Positions 1,288 to 8,783 of a stretch of DNA of 8,783 nucleotides are shown here, one piece after another. The DNA is from an uncultured Clostridia bacterium (GTDB lineage Bacteria; Bacillota_A; Clostridia; Christensenellales; CAG-138). Position 1 is the first letter of the stretch. Each line of letters starts with the position of its first letter. The DNA lies in the NCBI GenBank assembly GCA_947302865.1, contig CAMYWS010000036.1:1-8783 (forward strand), given 5' to 3'. The notes beneath the pieces are model-generated. The model ran no database searches and had not been told where the DNA came from. It saw only the letters and a program-made list of their open reading frames with translations. Position numbers and translations under genes: made by a program.

Positions 1288-1316
1288 TTGCTTTTTATTC
1301 GCTTCTTCTGTATAAT
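1288..1316 (+). promoter_or_regulatory. promoter of peptide cassette 1
   Basis: TTGCTT (1288-1293), a 17-base spacer and a perfect TATAAT (1311-1316) lie upstream of the first kinase gene. An A/T-rich tract at about 1252-1284, including a run of eight T, sits just upstream of the -35 like an UP element. Transcription would start near 1323. The 322-base gap between tyrS and the kinase holds this promoter, the divergent tyrS promoter and their leaders; I see no other gene in it. Confidence 0.75.
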
Positions 1317-1391
1317 CAAGGTGCAATGGTATGATGCTATGCATATCGGATCGATGAGCAGTGCGGTTCGGTCCCGAACAGGGAGTGTCTG

Positions 1392-2129
1392 ATGGAAGAG
1401 TTCAGGGTAAAGCTTGCCGACGTGCCGATCGGGATCCGGTGCCGGTACGAGATCAACAAGCGATTCCTGAAAGACTATTTGACGGAGGAAGAGCCGCTGT
1501 TCTGCGTCGAGCCGACGGATGCGGATCTCGAACGCGCGCGGGAGGATTACGAGCTTCTGGACAAGGCGGACGGCCGCGAAGGCATCCGAAGGTCGGAGAT
1601 CTTCTTTGAAAACGCAGCGCTGAACCGTCTGATCGCGGAACGGATCACGGCATACGACGTGCTTCTGATGCACGGCTCCGCGCTTTGCATGGACGGCGAA
1701 ACGTACATCTTCACGGCGCCGAGCGGGACGGGTAAGAGCACGCACGCACGGCTGTGGCGGGAAACATTCGGCGATCGCGTCTTCATGATCAACGACGACA
1801 AGCCGATGCTCCGCGTACGGGAGGACGGCGTGATCGCATACGGTACGCCGTGGAACGGCAAGCACAACCTGAGCCGCAACGCATCCGCGCCGGTTCGCGC
1901 GATCGCACTTCTTAAAAGGAGCGAAGAGAACCGCGTCGAGCCGATGGTGAAAAGCGACGCGTTCACGGTTCTGATCTCACAGGCGCTTACATCAAAGGAT
2001 CCTGCCGTCATGCTTCGGATCCTGACGCTGGAAAAGCGAATGCTGGAAAAGGTGCGGTTTTATACGCTGTACTGCAGCATGGAACCGGATGCGGCGCGCG
2101 TGTCCTATGAAGGTATGAAACAGGTATGA
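1392..2129 (+). CDS. HprK-like P-loop kinase, cassette 1
   Basis: A 245-residue protein resembling the C-terminal catalytic domain of HPr kinase/phosphorylase. What is seen: MHGSA with H94 ahead of the nucleotide site, a Walker A loop APSGTGKST (109-117, K115), INDD (133-136) matching the paired aspartates after the P-loop in HprK, and GTPWNGK (151-157). The roughly 85 residues before the domain do not resemble the HprK N-terminal domain, and there is no HPr or sugar phosphotransferase gene nearby, so carbon catabolite control is unlikely. HprK homologues are known from lasso-peptide clusters, where they phosphorylate a precursor Ser. By analogy I infer Ser/Thr phosphorylation of the peptides encoded immediately downstream. 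The start has GGGAG at 1381-1385. It is the first gene of its operon and paralogous to the kinase at 4252-5007. Confidence 0.85.
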   Translation: MEEFRVKLADVPIGIRCRYEINKRFLKDYLTEEEPLFCVEPTDADLERAREDYELLDKADGREGIRRSEIFFENAALNRLIAERITAYDVLLMHGSALCMDGETYIFTAPSGTGKSTHARLWRETFGDRVFMINDDKPMLRVREDGVIAYGTPWNGKHNLSRNASAPVRAIALLKRSEENRVEPMVKSDAFTVLISQALTSKDPAVMLRILTLEKRMLEKVRFYTLYCSMEPDAARVSYEGMKQV

Positions 2130-2130
2130 C

Positions 2131-2144
2131 CCCGCCGAAGCGGG
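2131..2144 (+). other. intercistronic hairpin between kinase and precursor genes
   Basis: CCCGC (2131-2135), loop CGAA, GCGGG (2140-2144) begins one base after the kinase stop codon, 51 bases before the first precursor start. No T-run follows, so it is not an intrinsic terminator. A hairpin sits at the same place in cassette 2, suggesting a role in processing or stabilising the precursor part of the message. Confidence 0.45.
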
Positions 2145-2195
2145 TTAGATACAAACAAGAATTTCGGTCGTTGTAAAACGAAAGGAGAACATACT

Positions 2196-2315
2196 ATGGA
2201 AAAGTACGTAAAGCCGAACATGGAAATCGTTGATATTCCCGGATTTGCGATCGTCACGGCAGATACTTGTCCCACCAAGATGCCGGAGATGAACATCGGC
2301 GAGATCGACGGTTAA
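2196..2315 (+). CDS. RiPP precursor peptide 1, cassette 1
   Basis: A 39-residue open frame preceded by a good ribosome binding site (AAAGGAG, about 2181-2186). The N-terminus reads MEKYVKPNMEIVDI and continues to IVT (19-21), matching the two other tiny peptides in the window: Y4, P7, M9, E10 and V12 are shared or conservatively replaced. The tail (22-39) is unlike the others. It has one cysteine (C25, in DTCPTK), two threonines (T24, T27), no serine, and a KMPEM motif (28-32). A conserved leader plus variable tail next to radical SAM, PqqD-like and kinase genes is the layout of a RiPP precursor. The exact leader/core boundary and the mature product cannot be read from the sequence; a boundary near residue 21 is a guess. 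Confidence 0.8.
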   Translation: MEKYVKPNMEIVDIPGFAIVTADTCPTKMPEMNIGEIDG

Positions 2316-2321
2316 CGCTCT

Positions 2322-2432
2322 ATGGAGCAGTACCAGAAGCCTTCGCTCGAAGTCGTTGTGTTCGACGAAGATACGATTACGACCAGCGGTTGCATCGGAT
2401 CCACCGCGATCATGCTTCCTGAACTTCCGTAA
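2322..2432 (+). CDS. RiPP precursor peptide 2, cassette 1
   Basis: A 36-residue open frame starting six bases after the stop of precursor 1 and ending at 2432. The leader is MEQYQKPSLEVVVF, then a DEDTITTSG stretch (15-23). It keeps Y4, P7, L9, E10 and V12 and thus the YxxPxL element seen in lasso-type leaders. The tail contains one cysteine (C24, in SGCIGS), several Ser/Thr, and ends MLPELP, which echoes KMPEM in peptide 1. There is no good ribosome binding site of its own, so it is probably translated by coupling to precursor 1. The pair gives cassette 1 two different cores for one set of enzymes. Confidence 0.8.
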   Translation: MEQYQKPSLEVVVFDEDTITTSGCIGSTAIMLPELP

Positions 2433-2459
2433 ATGAACCAAACGGTTTCGGAAGCGGTG

Positions 2460-3776
2460 ATGATCGAGCGGAATCCGCAGGATGCAGCACTGTCCAGGAT
2501 CCTGCCGGCGCAGGAACCGCAAGCCGACATGACCTATGTGCCGTCGCAGTTTGCTGTAACGTTTGAGCACAACGGGAAGCGGTATGCGTTTCACACGCTG
2601 ACAAAGCAGCTTCTTGAAACCGATCTGTCGAACGCAGCCGAATCGAATAGCGGGAAAGAAGCCCTCATCAGAGGGCTGTTTCTCGTTCCCGAAGAAAAGG
2701 ACGAATGCGCTTACTATCGGTCCGTTTCCGCGCTGATGCGGATCTATCACCGAAAACCGGGCAACAACGGGTTTATGATCCTGCCGACGCTCGGGTGCAA
2801 CGCGCGCTGCGTGTACTGCTATGAGGAGGGCATGAAGCCTGTCTCCATGACGGCGGAGACCGCGGACGCCGTGGTACGCTATATCGTCGAAACACACGCG
2901 GTCGAGCCGGTGAAGATCAACTGGTTCGGCGGCGAACCGCTGTTACGACCGGATATCATCGACCGCGTCTCGGAAGGATTGAAAAAAGCGGGCGTACGCT
3001 ATCGGGGCGGCATGGTCAGTAACGGCAGTCTGATCACGCCGGAGACCGTTGAAAAGATGAAAGGACTCTGGAACGTGACCGGAGTCCAGATCTCCTTGGA
3101 CGGCTGCGAACGGGATTATATCATCCGCAAGCGGTACGTGAGTTACCGCGATACCTACCGTTCCGTCATGCGCGCGATCAGCGACATGAGCGAGGCGGGG
3201 ATCGGCGTGCTCGTCCGCTGCAACACGGAGGAGAGCATCTGGGACGGCGTTCCGCAGTTTCTGAAGGATCTGTCCGAAACCGTCGCACACAAGAAGAACG
3301 TACGGGTGTACTTCTCGCCGCTCGATTACGTGCGCAGGGGACCGGACGCATATGCGCTGTGGGAAAAGATCCTCGACGCGCGAACGCTGATCCGGGACGC
3401 CGGGTTCGAGCCGCTCATGCAGTTCGGACCGAAGCTCAGCTATCAGGTCTTCTATTGCATGGCGGACGGCGGAAGCGTTGTGATCGGACCGGACGGAAAG
3501 CTGTATCCCTGCGACCACTGCCTGCCGGACACTTGCTTCGGCGACGTGTTCCATGGAACGACGAACGAAGCGGTGCGGACCGCATTCTGCCGGACGGACC
3601 GGATCCGGGAGAAATGCCGCGCCTGTCCATACCTGCCGTGCTGCACGGGATTTGCGGCATGCCCGGTGCAGGACGCGGACTGCCGCAGGGTCCTTGAATT
3701 GTATACGATCACCCTGCTGAAGGATTTTATCGACCGAAAAACAATCACCGCGGACGGGAATGACCCGGTCTGCTGA
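2460..3776 (+). CDS. radical SAM/SPASM peptide maturase, cassette 1
   Basis: A 438-residue radical SAM enzyme with a C-terminal SPASM domain, inferred to modify precursor peptides 1 and 2. The cluster motif CNARCVYC gives CX3CX2C (C113, C117, C120), followed by the SAM-binding GGEP (157-160). The SPASM part has C333, GX4C ending at C351, then C386, C389, C395, C401 and C408, enough to hold auxiliary iron-sulfur clusters. The N-terminal ~100 residues precede the barrel and may help bind the leader. An in-frame ATG at 2433 abuts the precursor 2 stop and would add nine residues. I prefer 2460 because it aligns without gaps to the start of the paralogue at 5255 and has a weak GGAAG at 2450-2454. 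The chemistry (thioether, C-C or C-O cross-link, epimerisation) cannot be told from sequence. Confidence 0.93.
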   Translation: MIERNPQDAALSRILPAQEPQADMTYVPSQFAVTFEHNGKRYAFHTLTKQLLETDLSNAAESNSGKEALIRGLFLVPEEKDECAYYRSVSALMRIYHRKPGNNGFMILPTLGCNARCVYCYEEGMKPVSMTAETADAVVRYIVETHAVEPVKINWFGGEPLLRPDIIDRVSEGLKKAGVRYRGGMVSNGSLITPETVEKMKGLWNVTGVQISLDGCERDYIIRKRYVSYRDTYRSVMRAISDMSEAGIGVLVRCNTEESIWDGVPQFLKDLSETVAHKKNVRVYFSPLDYVRRGPDAYALWEKILDARTLIRDAGFEPLMQFGPKLSYQVFYCMADGGSVVIGPDGKLYPCDHCLPDTCFGDVFHGTTNEAVRTAFCRTDRIREKCRACPYLPCCTGFAACPVQDADCRRVLELYTITLLKDFIDRKTITADGNDPVC

Positions 3777-3789
3777 AGGGAGAAACGAT

Positions 3790-4050
3790 ATGAAGCTGAA
3801 ATCCAATTTTATTTCCCAGGACATCGACGATACCCGGTTTCTGGTGCCGGTCGGCGGAGAAGCGTTCTCCGGGATCGCCAAGGGCAACCGCTCTGCGGCG
3901 TTTCTTCTGGACTGCCTGAAAACCGACACGACGGAGGAGCAGATCGTCGACGCGATGTGCAAAAAGTATGACGCTCCGCGCGAAGTGATCGCCGCAGACG
4001 TTAAAGAGATCCTCGAAAAGCTCCGCAGCATCGGCGCGATCGAAGGATGA
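3790..4050 (+). CDS. PqqD-like RiPP recognition protein, cassette 1
   Basis: An 86-residue protein of the PqqD type, the small winged-helix RiPP recognition element that binds a precursor leader and delivers it to a radical SAM enzyme. The family pattern is visible: a beta-rich N-terminal half (VPVGGEAFSGIAKGNRSAAF), TTEEQIVDAMCKKYDA (46-61), then DVKEILEKLRSIGAI near the end. It follows the radical SAM gene by 13 bases with AAGGGAG at about 3774-3780. An earlier in-frame ATG at 3760 is rejected because it overlaps the upstream gene, has no good binding site, and would make this protein longer than its 86-residue paralogue at 6562. It is the last gene of cassette 1; no convincing terminator follows. 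Confidence 0.88.
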   Translation: MKLKSNFISQDIDDTRFLVPVGGEAFSGIAKGNRSAAFLLDCLKTDTTEEQIVDAMCKKYDAPREVIAADVKEILEKLRSIGAIEG

Positions 4051-4121
4051 GCCAGGCGTGTTTCCGCTTTTGATCCCGATCCTGTAATCACATTATTAAC
4101 ATTTGCATCGCAATACACGGC

Positions 4122-4150
4122 TTGACACGGAGCGTGTTGAGTCGTATATT
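4122..4150 (+). promoter_or_regulatory. promoter of peptide cassette 2
   Basis: A perfect TTGACA (4122-4127), a 17-base spacer and TATATT (4145-4150), with an A/T-rich stretch upstream (about 4085-4114). Transcription would start near 4157. This gives cassette 2 its own promoter, although read-through from cassette 1 is possible. The 201-base gap after cassette 1 holds this promoter and the leader; I see no RNA gene there. Confidence 0.8.
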
Positions 4151-4216
4151 ATTATAAAAAGGATGCTGAAAATGCGGGATTATGCGGACCGGCATTCCTG
4201 AATGTATGATTGTGAT

Positions 4217-4246
4217 CGTTCCGGACGGACCGGACGGAAAGGAACG
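4217..4246 (+). other. alternative stem-loops around the kinase 2 ribosome binding site
   Basis: CGTTCC (4217-4222) can pair with GGAACG (4241-4246), which would bury the AAAGGA binding site (4238-4243). Alternatively TCCGG (4220-4224) can pair with CCGGA (4230-4234), leaving the site free. The two pairings exclude each other. Whether either forms is not shown. Confidence 0.3.
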
Positions 4247-4251
4247 CCCTG

Positions 4252-5007
4252 ATGGAGAACGCCCCGATCCGCTTTACGGCGGAAATAGCGGATGTGCCGT
4301 TTGAGGTGCGTTGCTTTCGCCCTGAGACCGAGACGCTGCTGAAGGATTACAGGTCGGACAAGAAGCCGGAATTTGTGATCGATCTTTCGGACGGCGAATG
4401 CGACGGGATCCTGAAGCGGCTTACCGGGCTTTGGGAGAAGCAGGAAGATCCGACAGCCGTTTTCGGCGGGGCAGAAAAAAACGTCTTCATAGAAGAAGAA
4501 GCACTCTGCTGGATGCTGGGGAAAAAGCTCAGCCCGTATGATGCTCTCCAGCTTCATGGGTCCGCGATCTGTCTGGACGGCGAAGCGTATATCTTCACGG
4601 CGCCGAGCGGAACAGGAAAAAGCACGCATGCGCGGCTCTGGCGCGAGACCTTCGGCGATCGGGTATGGATGATCAACGACGACATGCCGTACCTGCGGAT
4701 CTTTGACGACTGCGTCCGCGCATACGGAACACCGTGGAACGGGAAGCATCATCTCAGCAGCAACAGTTCTGCACCTGTAAAGGCGATTGCGTGGCTGACG
4801 CGAGACAGCGAAAACCGGATCGAGCGGATCACGAAGGAAACAGCGTTTGCGGTTTTGGTGCAACAGACTTTCCGCCTTCCGGAGAAGGAATGGTGTTCAC
4901 GCATGTTGAACCAGTATCAAAAGTTACTTGACAAAGTACCTTTTTACAGACTATGGTGCAACATGGATGCACAGGCGGCAGAGGTTGCCGCATGCGGCAT
5001 GAAATAA
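4252..5007 (+). CDS. HprK-like P-loop kinase, cassette 2
   Basis: A 251-residue paralogue of the kinase at 1392-2129. The core from LHGSA (101-105, H102) through Walker A APSGTGKST (117-125, K123), the THARLWRETFGDRV run after it, INDD (141-144) and GTPWNGKHH (159-167) is nearly the same as in the first copy. The N-terminal ~85 residues and the C-terminus are much more diverged, apart from an ADVP motif (13-16; 9-12 in copy 1). That pattern suggests a conserved catalytic core with changed target specificity. Inferred role: phosphorylation of a Ser/Thr in the peptide encoded next. The binding site is AAAGGA at 4238-4243. The start overlaps the stop of a 16-codon upstream frame by one base (TGATG), as in cassette 1. 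Confidence 0.85.
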   Translation: MENAPIRFTAEIADVPFEVRCFRPETETLLKDYRSDKKPEFVIDLSDGECDGILKRLTGLWEKQEDPTAVFGGAEKNVFIEEEALCWMLGKKLSPYDALQLHGSAICLDGEAYIFTAPSGTGKSTHARLWRETFGDRVWMINDDMPYLRIFDDCVRAYGTPWNGKHHLSSNSSAPVKAIAWLTRDSENRIERITKETAFAVLVQQTFRLPEKEWCSRMLNQYQKLLDKVPFYRLWCNMDAQAAEVAACGMK

Positions 5008-5014
5008 GGCGAAC

Positions 5015-5029
5015 TCCGGCAAAACCGGA
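5015..5029 (+). other. intercistronic hairpin between kinase and precursor genes
   Basis: TCCGG (5015-5019), loop CAAAA, CCGGA (5025-5029) starts eight bases after the kinase 2 stop and ends 41 bases before the precursor start. It matches the hairpin at 2131-2144 in position but not in sequence. No T-run follows. Confidence 0.45.
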
Positions 5030-5070
5030 TCAGCATATAAGGATTAAAGCTACAGAAAGGAAACTCAACT

Positions 5071-5190
5071 ATGGAAAAGTACGAAGCACCCTCGATGGAG
5101 ATCGTTGAGCTGGAGAACAGCATCGTCACGTTTGGGCTGCCGAATCTTCCCACTCCGGGCGCATCCGGCAATCAGGACGCAAACTGCTGA
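5071..5190 (+). CDS. RiPP precursor peptide 3, cassette 2
   Basis: A 39-residue open frame with binding site GAAAGGAAA (5055-5063). The leader MEKYEAPSMEIVEL keeps Y4, P7, M9, E10 and V12 of the cassette 1 peptides and runs to IVT (18-20). The tail is FGLPNLPTPG (21-30) followed by a Gly/Ser/Asn/Asp-rich end and a single, C-terminal cysteine (C39). The LPNLP segment parallels KMPEM and MLPELP in the other two. A lone terminal cysteine is unusual and could be the partner in a thioether or the site of another modification. It lies between kinase 2 and radical SAM 2, the same place as precursors 1 and 2, which supports the assignment. The mature product is unknown. Confidence 0.8.
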   Translation: MEKYEAPSMEIVELENSIVTFGLPNLPTPGASGNQDANC

Positions 5191-5254
5191 CATGTGAACT
5201 GCGATTGACGGATGCCACACGGCGGCCGCCAACCCGAAATAGACAGATAAGATC

Positions 5255-6547
5255 ATGAGAGAATACCACAGACCGGATGATTCGTTTGGAAAATTATTTC
5301 AGACGCAGACACCGCGGCCTGGGATTCTTTATGTTCCGTCGCAGTTTTCGCTGCCGTTTTCGCACCATGGAAGGCAATACGTTTTCAACACGCTGACAAA
5401 ACAATGCGTGGAAGCCGCAATTCCCGAACGCGCGGAGGCGGGGGAGAAATATGATAAACTGATAGCAGCGCGGTTTCTGGTACCGGAGGGTACAGACGAG
5501 TTTTCGTTTTACCGATCGGTAGTTACGCTTCTGAAACTGCATGACCGAAAAAACAGGAAACCGGCGTACACGATCCTGCCGACGCTGTGCTGCAACGCGC
5601 GCTGCACTTACTGCTTTCAGGAAGATATGCCGAAGACCGGTATGACGAACGAAACGGTCAGGGATACGCTGCGCTTCATTTTGAACGACTGCGGCGGGAA
5701 AAAGGTCACGCTGAGCTGGTTCGGCGGCGAGCCGCTTCTCAGACAGGACGTGATCGACCGGATATCTGCCGGAATCAGGGATGCGGGTATCGACTATAAA
5801 GGGCTGATGGTCACCAACGGCAGTCTGATCACGCCGGAGACGATCGAAAAGATGATGGATCTCTGGCGTCTCGAACGGATCCAGATCTCCATGGACGGCG
5901 CGGAAGAGGATTATATCGCCCGCAAGCGGTATCTGCACTGCCGCGACGATTATCACAACGTAATCGAAGCGGTCGATCGTATGTCCGAAAACGGGATCTC
6001 TGTGCAGATCCGCAGCAATGTTGACGAGAACAATATCGACGGTGTTCCGCGGTTTCTCAACGATCTTTCTGCAGGCATCGAACACAAAGAGAACGTCAGC
6101 GTATACTTATCTCCGCTGCACGAGGTGATGCGGAAAGAACAGCACCGTGTGATATGGCCTGCGATCCTTTCACTGGAAGAGTCGATCAGGTCAGCCGGGT
6201 TTACCGTGCTGTCGGAACGTTTTAACCACGCGCTTCCGACATATCACTGTCTGGCGGACGCCGCGGGGATCGTGATTGCGCCGAACGGCGATCTGTACTG
6301 TTGTGAGAGCTTTTCGAACGAATCACGGATCGGCAGCGTGCGCGAAGGCGTTACCGATAGAGTCGCGCGTCAAGCTTTTGTCAACATGGATAAACTACCG
6401 GAGAAATGCAGAGTATGCACGTTTCTGCCGGATTGTATGCCGATCGTCAATTGCCCGAGGTACGGGCTTCTTTGCAAGGAGGGGTATATGCTCCTGACGC
6501 TTGATGCATTGAGAAACATAATTGACGAAATCGAAACCAGAGAATAA
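5255..6547 (+). CDS. radical SAM/SPASM peptide maturase, cassette 2
   Basis: A 430-residue paralogue of the enzyme at 2460-3776, inferred to act on precursor peptide 3. CNARCTYC supplies CX3CX2C (C113, C117, C120) and GGEP lies at 157-160, the same numbering as in copy 1. SPASM cysteines C332, C350, C385, C388, C394, C400 and C407 keep exactly the same spacings as copy 1. Copy 1's extra cysteines at 354 and 359 are absent here. Other shared stretches are YVPSQF (26-31), TLTKQ (46-50), TNGSLITPET (187-196) and ARKRY. No longer frame is possible because a stop lies 15 bases upstream. The ribosome binding site is poor (GATAAGATC before ATG), and 64 bases separate it from the precursor, so it may be made in lower amount than the peptide. 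Confidence 0.93.
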   Translation: MREYHRPDDSFGKLFQTQTPRPGILYVPSQFSLPFSHHGRQYVFNTLTKQCVEAAIPERAEAGEKYDKLIAARFLVPEGTDEFSFYRSVVTLLKLHDRKNRKPAYTILPTLCCNARCTYCFQEDMPKTGMTNETVRDTLRFILNDCGGKKVTLSWFGGEPLLRQDVIDRISAGIRDAGIDYKGLMVTNGSLITPETIEKMMDLWRLERIQISMDGAEEDYIARKRYLHCRDDYHNVIEAVDRMSENGISVQIRSNVDENNIDGVPRFLNDLSAGIEHKENVSVYLSPLHEVMRKEQHRVIWPAILSLEESIRSAGFTVLSERFNHALPTYHCLADAAGIVIAPNGDLYCCESFSNESRIGSVREGVTDRVARQAFVNMDKLPEKCRVCTFLPDCMPIVNCPRYGLLCKEGYMLLTLDALRNIIDEIETRE

Positions 6548-6561
6548 GGAGATATCAACAT

Positions 6562-6822
6562 ATGAAACTCAAGGATACGTTTATCACACAGGACATTGAC
6601 GGCACGCAGTTTATGGTCGCCGTCGGAGAAACCTCCTTCACCGGCATCGTAAAGAGCAACAAGACCGCGGCGTTTATCGTGGATCGTCTCAAGGAGGAGA
6701 CCACGAAGGCACAGATCGTCGACGCCATGTGCGCAAAGTACGACGCACCGAGAGATCGGATCGAAGCGGACGTCGAAACGGTTCTGAACAAGCTGCGCGG
6801 GATCGGGGCGTTGGATGAGTAA
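6562..6822 (+). CDS. PqqD-like RiPP recognition protein, cassette 2
   Basis: An 86-residue PqqD-type leader-binding protein, the same length as its paralogue at 3790-4050. Shared features are the start MKLK, the QDID motif (10-13), KSNKTAAFIVDRLK (30-43), QIVDAMCAKYDAPR (51-64) and a closing LNKLRGIGALDE. It begins 14 bases after the radical SAM stop with AAGGAG at 6545-6550. Its stop overlaps the methyltransferase start by eight bases (ATGAGTAA), so the two are probably translated together. Inferred role: present the YxxPxM leader of peptide 3 to the SPASM enzyme. Confidence 0.88.
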   Translation: MKLKDTFITQDIDGTQFMVAVGETSFTGIVKSNKTAAFIVDRLKEETTKAQIVDAMCAKYDAPRDRIEADVETVLNKLRGIGALDE

Positions 6823-7546
6823 GCTCACGGCATTTTTCAAAAAAGTGTTTCGATGGGCAAAGAGAAAACTCAGAAGGGCGTACGTTTCGTTTTGCCGCCG
6901 GATCCTTCGCGTGCACGATTGGATCATTGACCGCCGCATCTGCGGGATCAGTCTCGGCAAGGTCATACTGGACAAGTGCGGAGACGAAAAGAACCAGATC
7001 GGCGGCACAGGGACGGAATCCTCACCCTATCTCTACCTGAAGCATATCTTCTCGCATGTCCGACTGAACGCTTCGGACAGGATCCTGGACGTCGGATGCG
7101 GAAAGGGACGCGTGTTCGCGTTTCTCATCAAGGAAAAGTGCCCGTGCGAGATCGACGGGATCGAGCACAACGAACCGGTCGCAAAGATCGCGGAAGCGTG
7201 GACAAAAAAGTATCCGCAGGTGCACGTCATGACCGGCGACGCTTTTTTGCAGGACTTCAATCAGTACACGGTGCTGACCCTGTCGCGTCCGTTCTTTGTA
7301 CAAACCTACTGTGCGTTTATCGAAAAGCTTGAAGAGAAACTGACCCACCCGGTCACGCTTGTTTCCTGGCACGAGGATCCGCGCGTGCGGGACTTCATCA
7401 AGGTCCGTCCCGGCTGGCATCTGGCGTATCACGAATTTACCAACCGCATCCACGGGTTGTACCTCAGAAACTGTCCGCAGCCGTTTTCGGTCTACACGTA
7501 CGATCCCGGACAGCGAACGGAACGGCAGACCGGCAGCGAAGCATAA
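6815..7546 (+). CDS. class I SAM-dependent methyltransferase
   Basis: A 243-residue protein with a Rossmann-type methyltransferase domain: motif I ILDVGCGKG (90-98), the acidic residue ending strand 2 (GIEHN, E117), GDAF (141-144), and LSRPF (156-160) where many N-methyltransferases have an NPPF-type motif. The first ~40 residues are strongly basic and amphipathic (FFKK, RWAKRKLRR, FCRRILR), as in a membrane-surface or RNA-contacting segment. There is no counterpart in cassette 1. Overlap with the PqqD-like gene and the terminator just downstream place it in the cassette 2 operon. Methylation of peptide 3 is a reasonable inference, but the substrate could be something else, and I do not recognise the subfamily. 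Confidence 0.8.
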   Translation: MSKLTAFFKKVFRWAKRKLRRAYVSFCRRILRVHDWIIDRRICGISLGKVILDKCGDEKNQIGGTGTESSPYLYLKHIFSHVRLNASDRILDVGCGKGRVFAFLIKEKCPCEIDGIEHNEPVAKIAEAWTKKYPQVHVMTGDAFLQDFNQYTVLTLSRPFFVQTYCAFIEKLEEKLTHPVTLVSWHEDPRVRDFIKVRPGWHLAYHEFTNRIHGLYLRNCPQPFSVYTYDPGQRTERQTGSEA

Positions 7547-7563
7547 ACCCAAACATGATCGTT

Positions 7564-7587
7564 CCGCCGTGCAGACGGCGGTTTTTT
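7564..7587 (+). terminator. intrinsic terminator of cassette 2
   Basis: CCGCCGT (7564-7570), loop GCAG, ACGGCGG (7575-7581), then six T (7582-7587). A perfect 7-bp stem directly followed by a T-run, 17 bases after the methyltransferase stop, closes the operon. Confidence 0.92.
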
Positions 7588-7654: not shown

Positions 7655-8284
7655 ATGGCTTTTCGGGTATTGCTGATCAACGGAAGTCCGCATCATAACG
7701 GGTGCACGGCAAGGGCGCTCAGGGAAATTGAAACAACGCTTCATGCGGAGGGGATCGAAACGGATCTCGTTCACGTCGGAAACGCCGACGTGCGCGGCTG
7801 CGTTTCGTGCGGGTTCTGCTTTGAAAACGGCCGCTGCGTATTTGACGACAAGGTCAACGAGGTCGCAACGCTGTTCGAAAAAGCGGATGGGCTCATCGTC
7901 GGCAGTCCCGTCTATTACGGCTCGCCGAACGGCACGCTTATCTCGTTTCTCGACCGGCTGTTTTACAGCACGCGTTTTCCGAAGCATATGAAGGTCGGCG
8001 CGGCGGTCGTGAGCTGCCGCAGAGGCGGCAACACGGCGTCGTTCGACGTGCTGAACAAGTATTTCACGATCTCCTCCATGCCGATCGCGTCCGCCAACTA
8101 CTGGAACCAGGTGCACGGTTTCACCGCCGAGGACGTCGAAAAGGACCTCGAAGGGCTGCAGACGATGCGAAACCTCGCCAAAAACACGGCGTTTCTGATC
8201 CGTGCGATCGCGCATGAGCGCGAAGCGGGCGGACTTCCGACGCTGGAGCACGGATGCTTCACAAGTTTCCCGGACGGCAAATAA
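7655..8284 (+). CDS. iron-sulfur flavoprotein-like NAD(P)H/FMN reductase
   Basis: A 209-residue flavodoxin-fold oxidoreductase. LLINGSPHHNGCT (6-18) is the FMN phosphate loop of the NADPH-dependent FMN reductase family, and GSPVYYGSPNGTLISFLDR (84-102) is the family's second signature. C49, C52, C55 and C61 form CX2CX2CX5C, the compact motif that holds a [4Fe-4S] cluster in archaeal and clostridial iron-sulfur flavoproteins, so an electron-transfer role in an anaerobe is likely. The physiological partner is not evident. It has AAAGGAG at 7641-7646 and its own promoter. The cassette 2 terminator separates it from the peptide operon, so a link to radical SAM electron supply would be speculation. 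Confidence 0.88.
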   Translation: MAFRVLLINGSPHHNGCTARALREIETTLHAEGIETDLVHVGNADVRGCVSCGFCFENGRCVFDDKVNEVATLFEKADGLIVGSPVYYGSPNGTLISFLDRLFYSTRFPKHMKVGAAVVSCRRGGNTASFDVLNKYFTISSMPIASANYWNQVHGFTAEDVEKDLEGLQTMRNLAKNTAFLIRAIAHEREAGGLPTLEHGCFTSFPDGK

Positions 8285-8783
8285 TGGAACACTTCACGCT
8301 GTATCACAATAAAATCCCCGCGGTCATAAGGGACTGCATGGCAGCGCCGTGCGTACAGCGGCTGAAGGATGTCGGCATGAACTGCGGCTGCGAGTACACG
8401 TCTTTTGCGCGTTTTGCGGGATTACAGCCGTATTCGCGCTTCGATCACAGCGTCGGCGCGGCGCTGATCGTATGGCACTTCACGGGCGATGAGAAGCAAG
8501 CGGTCGCGGGACTTCTGCACGACGTCGCAACGCCGGTCTTCGCGCACGTCGTGGATTTTCTGAGAGGCGATTACCTTGTGCAGGAATCGACCGAGGACGG
8601 CACGCGCGCGGTCATCGAGCATGATGCGGCGCTGCAAAGCGCGCTTACCGCACACGGGCTCACCACCGACGACGTATGCGACTATCACCGTTATCCGATC
8701 GCAGATAACGATTCGCCGCGGCTTAGCGCCGACCGGCTTGAATACACGCTCGGGAATCTATTGAACTACCGCATTCGTACGCC
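8284..8783 (+). CDS. HD-domain phosphohydrolase (3' end beyond window)
   Basis: The first 166 codons of a metal-dependent phosphohydrolase of the HD superfamily. Visible metal-ligand motifs are RFDHSVG (H55), LLHDVATPVFAH (HD at 79-80, H88) and a later SADRLEY (D150), the usual H...HD...D order. The start ATG shares one base with the upstream stop (TAATG), so the two genes are translationally coupled and belong to one operon. HD proteins of this sort act on nucleotides or related phosphate esters; the substrate cannot be told here. The frame is open to the end of the window. Confidence 0.85.
   Translation, partial: MEHFTLYHNKIPAVIRDCMAAPCVQRLKDVGMNCGCEYTSFARFAGLQPYSRFDHSVGAALIVWHFTGDEKQAVAGLLHDVATPVFAHVVDFLRGDYLVQESTEDGTRAVIEHDAALQSALTAHGLTTDDVCDYHRYPIADNDSPRLSADRLEYTLGNLLNYRIRT

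Follow-up and report, generated by a model that had tools for sequence, protein, structure and literature searches.

Linear polyphosphorylated peptides (LPP) were described by Popov et al. in May 2026 (PMC13381572). According to that paper, their core gene set consists of a kinase, a recognition element (RRE) for ribosomally synthesized and post-translationally modified peptides (RiPPs), an archaeal-type signal peptidase (SpI), a nucleoside triphosphate (NTP) transferase, and an MsbA-like exporter. Binding of the YxxP leader by the RRE is shown there for LPP; the LPP kinase is Ser-specific, and LppK failed to phosphorylate an S3T variant. Here, we describe a stretch of 8,783 nucleotides from an uncultured Clostridia bacterium (contig CAMYWS010000036.1 of assembly GCA_947302865.1; the whole stretch is called the window below) that carries twin tandem cassettes, each with genes for an HprK/PEPCK-fold kinase, one or two peptides of 36-39 amino acids with a YxxP leader, a SPASM-type radical S-adenosylmethionine (rSAM) enzyme, and a PqqD-type RRE. 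The two are probably paralogous RiPP cassettes, in each of which the kinase and the rSAM enzyme share one short YxxP-leader peptide as substrate and a separate PqqD-type RRE presents the leader.

Two cassettes and their precursor peptides

The preliminary description of this DNA had reported the same order of kinase, tiny peptide(s), SPASM rSAM enzyme, and PqqD-like protein in both cassettes, and this order was confirmed. Cassette 1, on the plus strand like cassette 2, consists of the genes for the kinase (1392..2129, 245 amino acids), peptide 1 (2196..2315, 39 amino acids), peptide 2 (2322..2432, 36 amino acids), the rSAM enzyme (2433..3776, 447 amino acids), the start of which immediately abuts the stop codon of peptide 2, and PqqD (3790..4050). 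In cassette 2, the genes for the kinase (4252..5007, 251 amino acids), peptide 3 (5071..5190, 39 amino acids), the rSAM enzyme (5255..6547, 430 amino acids), and PqqD (6562..6822) are followed by a methyltransferase gene that overlaps the PqqD stop (6815..7546; PCMT family PF01135, 25.5 bits, cut-off 20.3) and, 3' of it, by a terminator-like hairpin (7564..7581, terminator scan). The promoter-like site of cassette 1 (1288..1316, TTGCTT-17-TATAAT) has a weak -35 and was read from the sequence, being absent from the promoter scan list; that of cassette 2 (4122..4150) was found by the scan, with 11/12 matches and a spacer of 17.

Peptide 1 (leader MEKYVKP) contains a TADTCPTK motif and no Ser, while peptide 3 has an IVT motif and a C-terminal Cys. 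The window peptides were compared in seven pairs with those of the loci L001, L002, L003, or L149 (L and G numbers are our handles for loci and genomes). The ratio of nonsynonymous to synonymous differences (pN/pS) ranged from 0.20 to 0.48 (peptide 1: 0.31, 0.38; peptide 2: 0.48, 0.30; peptide 3: 0.20, 0.44, 0.20). Chance open frames were rejected as an explanation on the basis of this ratio and of family conservation, and the window peptides are, as judged from these comparisons, genuine genes under purifying selection. A database search with nine peptides yielded 31 relatives, of which P0270 and P0271 were excluded because they could be placed in none of the families. Invariant residues of the peptide 1 family (13 distinct members) include Y4, P7, T21, D23, T24, C25, and P26, so that an invariant Thr and an invariant Cys are neighbours (T24-C25). 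In the peptide 2 family (five distinct members), Y4, P7, one Thr, and an I-x-L-P-E motif are invariant and each member has a Cys; in the peptide 3 family (17 distinct members), Y4, P7, I18, V19, T20, and the C-terminal Cys are invariant. The preliminary description had named a lack of leader conservation among homologues as one outcome that would speak against it; all three families have an invariant Y4 and P7, and the assignment of the loci to RiPP cassettes with YxxP leaders is well supported. The peptide cores differ strongly among close relatives.

The kinase of cassette 1 has an intact P-loop (SGTGKST) and NDD motif, and its own entry, P0034, carries a precomputed PF27840 assignment, as do the listed homologues; its fold was inferred from the cassette 2 kinase, to which it is 48 % identical. 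Structure modelling covered single chains. The P-loop is intact in 95/96 kinases compared and NDD in 92/96. All 61 rSAM enzymes compared have CxxxCxxC and a SPASM-type Cys run. The Pfam radical SAM and SPASM models (PF04055, PF13186) both match the rSAM enzyme of cassette 1 (rSAM 1) over their cut-offs, SPASM doing so in this one only of the two window enzymes; the best NCBIfam match of rSAM 1, TIGR04463, scores 126 bits (cut-off 525). Both PqqD proteins match PF05402 (52.6 and 57.8 bits in cassettes 1 and 2), and the best NCBIfam match of PqqD 1 is the lasso PqqD model NF033530, with 33.6 bits, under the cut-off of 70. For PqqD 1, the start at 3790 is favoured by a good upstream ribosome site, as assessed by eye, and the alternative start at 3760 seems unlikely.

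The nearest relatives of both cassettes are gut Clostridia. One or both cassettes are present in four further genomes, next to the same gene for tyrosyl-tRNA synthetase (TyrRS), which in the window lies at 2-1114 on the minus strand (TIGR00234, 360 bits) and of which the upstream counterparts in L001, L002, L003, and L149 are 93-97 % identical to it. L002 has both cassettes, L001 and L149 have cassette 2 only, and L003 has cassette 1 only. The methyltransferase accompanies cassette 2, with a copy close to PqqD in these relatives (blastp: 89 % in L002, 76 % plus a 55 % paralogue in L001, which is the same contig as L185, and 75 and 50 % in L149), and blastp gave no hit to it in L003. A recent duplication of one cassette was rejected, as rSAM 1 and rSAM 2 are 43 % identical and belong to separate clades, although the intervening branches have only 80-92 % support.

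Downstream of cassette 2 lies a flavin mononucleotide (FMN) reductase gene (7655-8284, PF03358), which the window shares with L001/L185 only among the loci compared. The start of a gene conserved in L001-L003, for which Pfam and NCBIfam gave no match, occupies 8284-8783. An Rfam scan of the window at gathering scores gave no match.

Kinase and rSAM enzyme across genomes

The family of the genome of L002 comprises 103 genomes, in which an rSAM model (E <= 1e-60) found 46 places in 30 genomes and a kinase model (E <= 1e-20) 89 places in 58. A same-strand kinase lies within 2.5 kb of 18/46 rSAM places, and 18/89 kinase places are adjacent in this way, where about 0.13 adjacencies would be expected upon random placement in 2-Mb genomes. 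Both genes occur in 27 genomes, rSAM only in three, kinase only in 31, and neither in 42 (Fisher p 7e-6, 103 genomes). In a class-wide sample of 341 genomes, the kinase was found in 95 and the rSAM enzyme in at least two, one of which is the genome of L002; the latter number is a lower bound because at most five rSAM candidates were scored per genome. The rSAM subfamily looks concentrated in the family of this genome and in some other lineages.

On a tree of 61 rSAM enzymes, 35 of them linked, the link to a kinase changes nine times, at least six of which are forced by well-supported branches (shuffled mean 19.8). The link to an rSAM enzyme changes 13 times, at least six of them forced, on a tree of 96 kinases with 33 linked (shuffled mean 27.6). 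The sample for these trees is biased to linked loci because 80 loci were found via the kinase. Kinase and rSAM tree distances correlate over the 33 linked pairs (r 0.69, 0/2000 permutations), which fits joint inheritance as well as functional pairing and does not separate the two. Adjacency, tree changes, and tree distances support the view that kinase and rSAM enzyme are coupled both physically and in their evolution.

When genome contigs were scanned with the kinase alignment, at least 578 stretches were confirmed, the best 80 of which were used. Within the fetched stretches, PqqD was present in 72/80 loci and an rSAM enzyme in 17/80. Neighbour clusters within 6 kb of the kinase, each identified by one representative, included SpI in 38 of the 80 loci (TIGR02228, 27.9 bits, under the cut-off of 51.85), an MsbA-like ATP-binding cassette (ABC) exporter in 37 (TIGR02203, 402 of 602 bits), and an NTP transferase in 30 (PF14907, 145 bits). 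Nine of the 17 rSAM-bearing loci have at least one gene for SpI, ABC, or NTP transferase and eight, including L001-L003, have none. L174, L175 (the same contig as L016), and L177 contain kinase, rSAM, SpI, and ABC, with the NTP transferase on the opposite strand. Eight unlinked loci (L151, L160, L163-L167, L169) consist of peptide, rSAM, PqqD, and SpI and look like a kinase-free sister system; many of their peptides carry a D-V-I-T-x-S-C-like motif. Kinase-only loci of the LPP type, rSAM-only loci, and hybrids such as the window together make up three architectures.

L153 (G075 contig 4, 6895-13015) contains a tandem run of four rSAM genes of the family and no fewer than four leaders that resemble each other, M[KE]KYxxPE[MI]D[VI]ESLANDVVTAS; the cores that follow them have a T-P-C motif, and two rSAM frames contain an internal stop. 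L006 (1-6444) has two kinase/peptide/rSAM/PqqD cassettes with a formyltransferase-like gene between them; the record bears the label Planctomycetales and is possibly mis-binned Clostridia. A family 2 glycosyltransferase (10115-11080) between rSAM and PqqD of the hybrid locus L029, in which an NTP transferase and ABC are also present, suggests glycosylated products. A search of viral contigs with rSAM 2 gave no match, and one of plasmids with kinase 1 gave three partial matches only (29-30 % identity).

Peptides from the three architectures were collected with a pattern, giving 60 rows, 59 of them in the kinase, rSAM, or kinase plus rSAM groups. Of these, 52 served as seeds of a leader-region model, after removal of six evident false hits (L018, L078, L180, L181, L182, and one L162 frame) and of the L014 peptide at 7897, which failed a narrower pattern and was recovered by the model; some rows were anchored at the wrong place (L177, L183). 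The model found 83 distinct peptides, 17 from kinase-only, 29 from rSAM-only, 32 from hybrid, and five from other loci, the last five being left out of the Cys comparison. A Cys after the leader is present in 26/29 rSAM-only, 32/32 hybrid, and 3/17 kinase-only peptides (rSAM-linked 58/61 vs kinase-only 3/17, Fisher p 4e-10, uncorrected for shared ancestry). In two of the three kinase-only cases, L014 and L061, the Cys lies in the leader or an N-terminal extension, and in L069 it lies in the core. Cys is thus tied to the rSAM enzyme, as thioether formation would predict. L069, from Kandleria vitulina (4492 onward), combines an LPP-type leader with a core of about 95 residues; this core abounds in Asn, Gly, Ser, Thr, and Tyr and by far exceeds most of the other peptides in length.

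Proposed maturation and its alternatives

The best reading of these sequence comparisons is a Cys-dependent radical crosslink combined with phosphorylation near the leader-core junction. PqqD would bind the YxxP leader, after which the rSAM enzyme would crosslink the conserved Cys by radical chemistry, most likely through a thioether. The kinase would phosphorylate a hydroxyl near the junction, candidate sites being T21 or T24 of peptide 1, T20 of peptide 3, and a Thr or Ser of peptide 2. Ser22 of peptide 2 is located at Y+18, the position of the phosphorylated Ser3 in the LPP motif; L002 and L003 have no Ser there. In cassette 2, the methyltransferase may, judging from its conservation, add a methyl group. 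The leader would finally be cut by an SpI encoded elsewhere in the genome. Each of the four closest genomes (G001, G002, G003, and G065) has one SpI match (E <= 1e-15) on a contig other than that of the cassettes, which makes cleavage in trans plausible, and one or two matches to the NTP transferase family elsewhere. The SpI gene lies in an rSAM-only locus in G002 and G065 (L151, L160), while in G001 and G003 the surrounding 14-16 kb showed no recognisable rSAM, PqqD, or peptide. In evolutionary terms, the cassettes would unite the LPP toolkit with an rSAM toolkit of the same leader grammar. As in the preliminary description, we infer a product that is both radical-modified and phosphorylated.

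Several observations weigh against this proposal. No adjacent kinase accompanies 28/46 rSAM places, and no SpI (by the SpI model), NTP transferase, or MsbA-like exporter was found in the window. A Ser/Thr pair at most one residue apart, close to where the leader ends, was rejected as a phosphorylation mark, being as common without a kinase (25/29 rSAM-only peptides) as in kinase-only loci (15/17), and found in 16/32 hybrid peptides; it may be tied to the leader cut instead. The Cys comparison ignores shared ancestry and employs a peptide model derived from the same loci, and contig ends may conceal a kinase or rSAM gene, so that some loci could be falsely scored as devoid of one. Peptide 1 has no Ser, while LppK rejected Thr at its site (PMC13381572). 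For the kinase of cassette 1 to act on peptide 1, Thr would have to be accepted, and this is the main gap in the proposal of a doubly modified product.

A bolder form of the same proposal, which we consider possible though doubtful, is that phospho-crosslinked peptides form a RiPP class of their own. An HprK-fold kinase directed at Thr would act, interdependently with a SPASM rSAM enzyme, on neighbouring residues (T24-C25 for peptide 1) of one RRE-presented peptide; a shared signal peptidase would cleave in trans, and cassette 2 would add methylation. The adjacent, invariant Thr and Cys of peptide 1 would also suit a kinase that is a transient activator and leaves no phosphate on the final product, a plain rSAM RiPP; the phospho-Thr could serve as a leaving group, or phosphorylation as a checkpoint ahead of leader cleavage. 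This is unlikely, as the released LPP core is described as modified (PMC13381572) and as Pfam and NCBIfam named no lyase among the ten window proteins scanned.

Kinase and rSAM enzyme might also divide the labour, each acting on a different peptide in cassettes that are merely co-regulated neighbours. Cassette 1 does have two dissimilar peptides, and for 22/28 unlinked rSAM places a kinase is present elsewhere in the same genome, so that kinases may also serve unlinked peptides. Such a division is nevertheless improbable: only one peptide was recognised for both enzymes in cassette 2 and likewise in L001 and L005, kinase and rSAM distances co-vary, and all 32 hybrid-locus peptides have a Cys. 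PqqD with a SPASM rSAM enzyme is the layout of the pyrroloquinoline quinone (PQQ) pathway, but a PQQ- or mycofactocin-like route, which would use up the peptide to make a small redox molecule and in which the kinase would phosphorylate an intermediate, is hardly credible despite the downstream FMN reductase gene, which is confined to L001/L185 among the compared loci, since the cores differ markedly even among close relatives, in contrast to a fixed cofactor precursor. Double tailoring of one peptide remains the preferred reading.

Comparison with described systems

Paeninodin-type phosphorylated lasso peptides resemble the proposed products in having a tailoring kinase (PadeK, ThcoK, PsmK) that acts on a RiPP precursor (PMC9266682) and a leader motif likewise of the [Y/W]xxP type (PMC13381572). 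In these lasso peptides, phosphorylation is on the C-terminal Ser, and the paeninodin leaders have WxxP. A lasso peptide identity was rejected, as no lasso cyclase/macrolactam synthetase or B2 peptidase was found among the ten window proteins in Pfam and NCBIfam scans.

An HprK-related ScmC, a PqqD-related ScmD, and a SPASM rSAM enzyme, ScmE, are united in one named NCBIfam cassette, SynChlorMet (TIGR04248, TIGR04249, and TIGR04250). The window proteins remain far under the cut-offs, with 24.8 and 21.7 of 125 bits to ScmC (kinases 1 and 2), 13.3 of 100 to ScmD (PqqD 2), and 50.5 of 400 to ScmE (rSAM 2).

The ranthipeptide/SCIFF maturases CteB and PapB and the maturase TigE share the rSAM/SPASM fold and Cys-bearing cores with the window, and the feature that marks ranthipeptide/sactipeptide enzymes, a SPASM rSAM protein with intact radical SAM and auxiliary Cys, is present. 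The alignments extend into the N-terminal parts of TigE and CteB, starting at residues 21 and 30 for rSAM 2. The window differs in its separate PqqD and adjacent kinase, and no maturase cut-off was reached among the matches listed (PapB, 92 and 90 of 340 bits; SCIFF, 48 and 56 of 425).

LPP loci share with the window an HprK-like kinase, a discrete RRE, and a YxxP-leader peptide. Moreover, Clostridial kinases of the same family often adjoin SpI, NTP transferase, and MsbA-like ABC genes, the LPP core set. In contrast, none of these three genes was found in the window, the LPP site is Ser3 whereas peptide 1 has no Ser, and the term 'radical' occurs 0 times in the main text of PMC13381572. Literature searches, conducted mostly outside subscription papers, found no paper on the combination of kinase and rSAM enzyme. 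The earlier statement that this is not a named class calls for qualification: the phosphorylating half matches LPP gene sets, and SynChlorMet is a named cassette, although its models match the window proteins only weakly.

In conclusion, the cassettes are real, conserved, and functionally coherent, and they apparently combine, as a hybrid, two sorts of RiPP tailoring that also occur apart. This suggests that the LPP-type phosphorylating and rSAM toolkits share one grammar of leader and RRE, and that, in the set of loci compared, the connection between the two arose or was lost no fewer than six times. The window offers two compact cassettes suited to the direct study of doubly tailored peptides, with the kinase-only relatives of LPP type and the rSAM-only relatives as natural controls.

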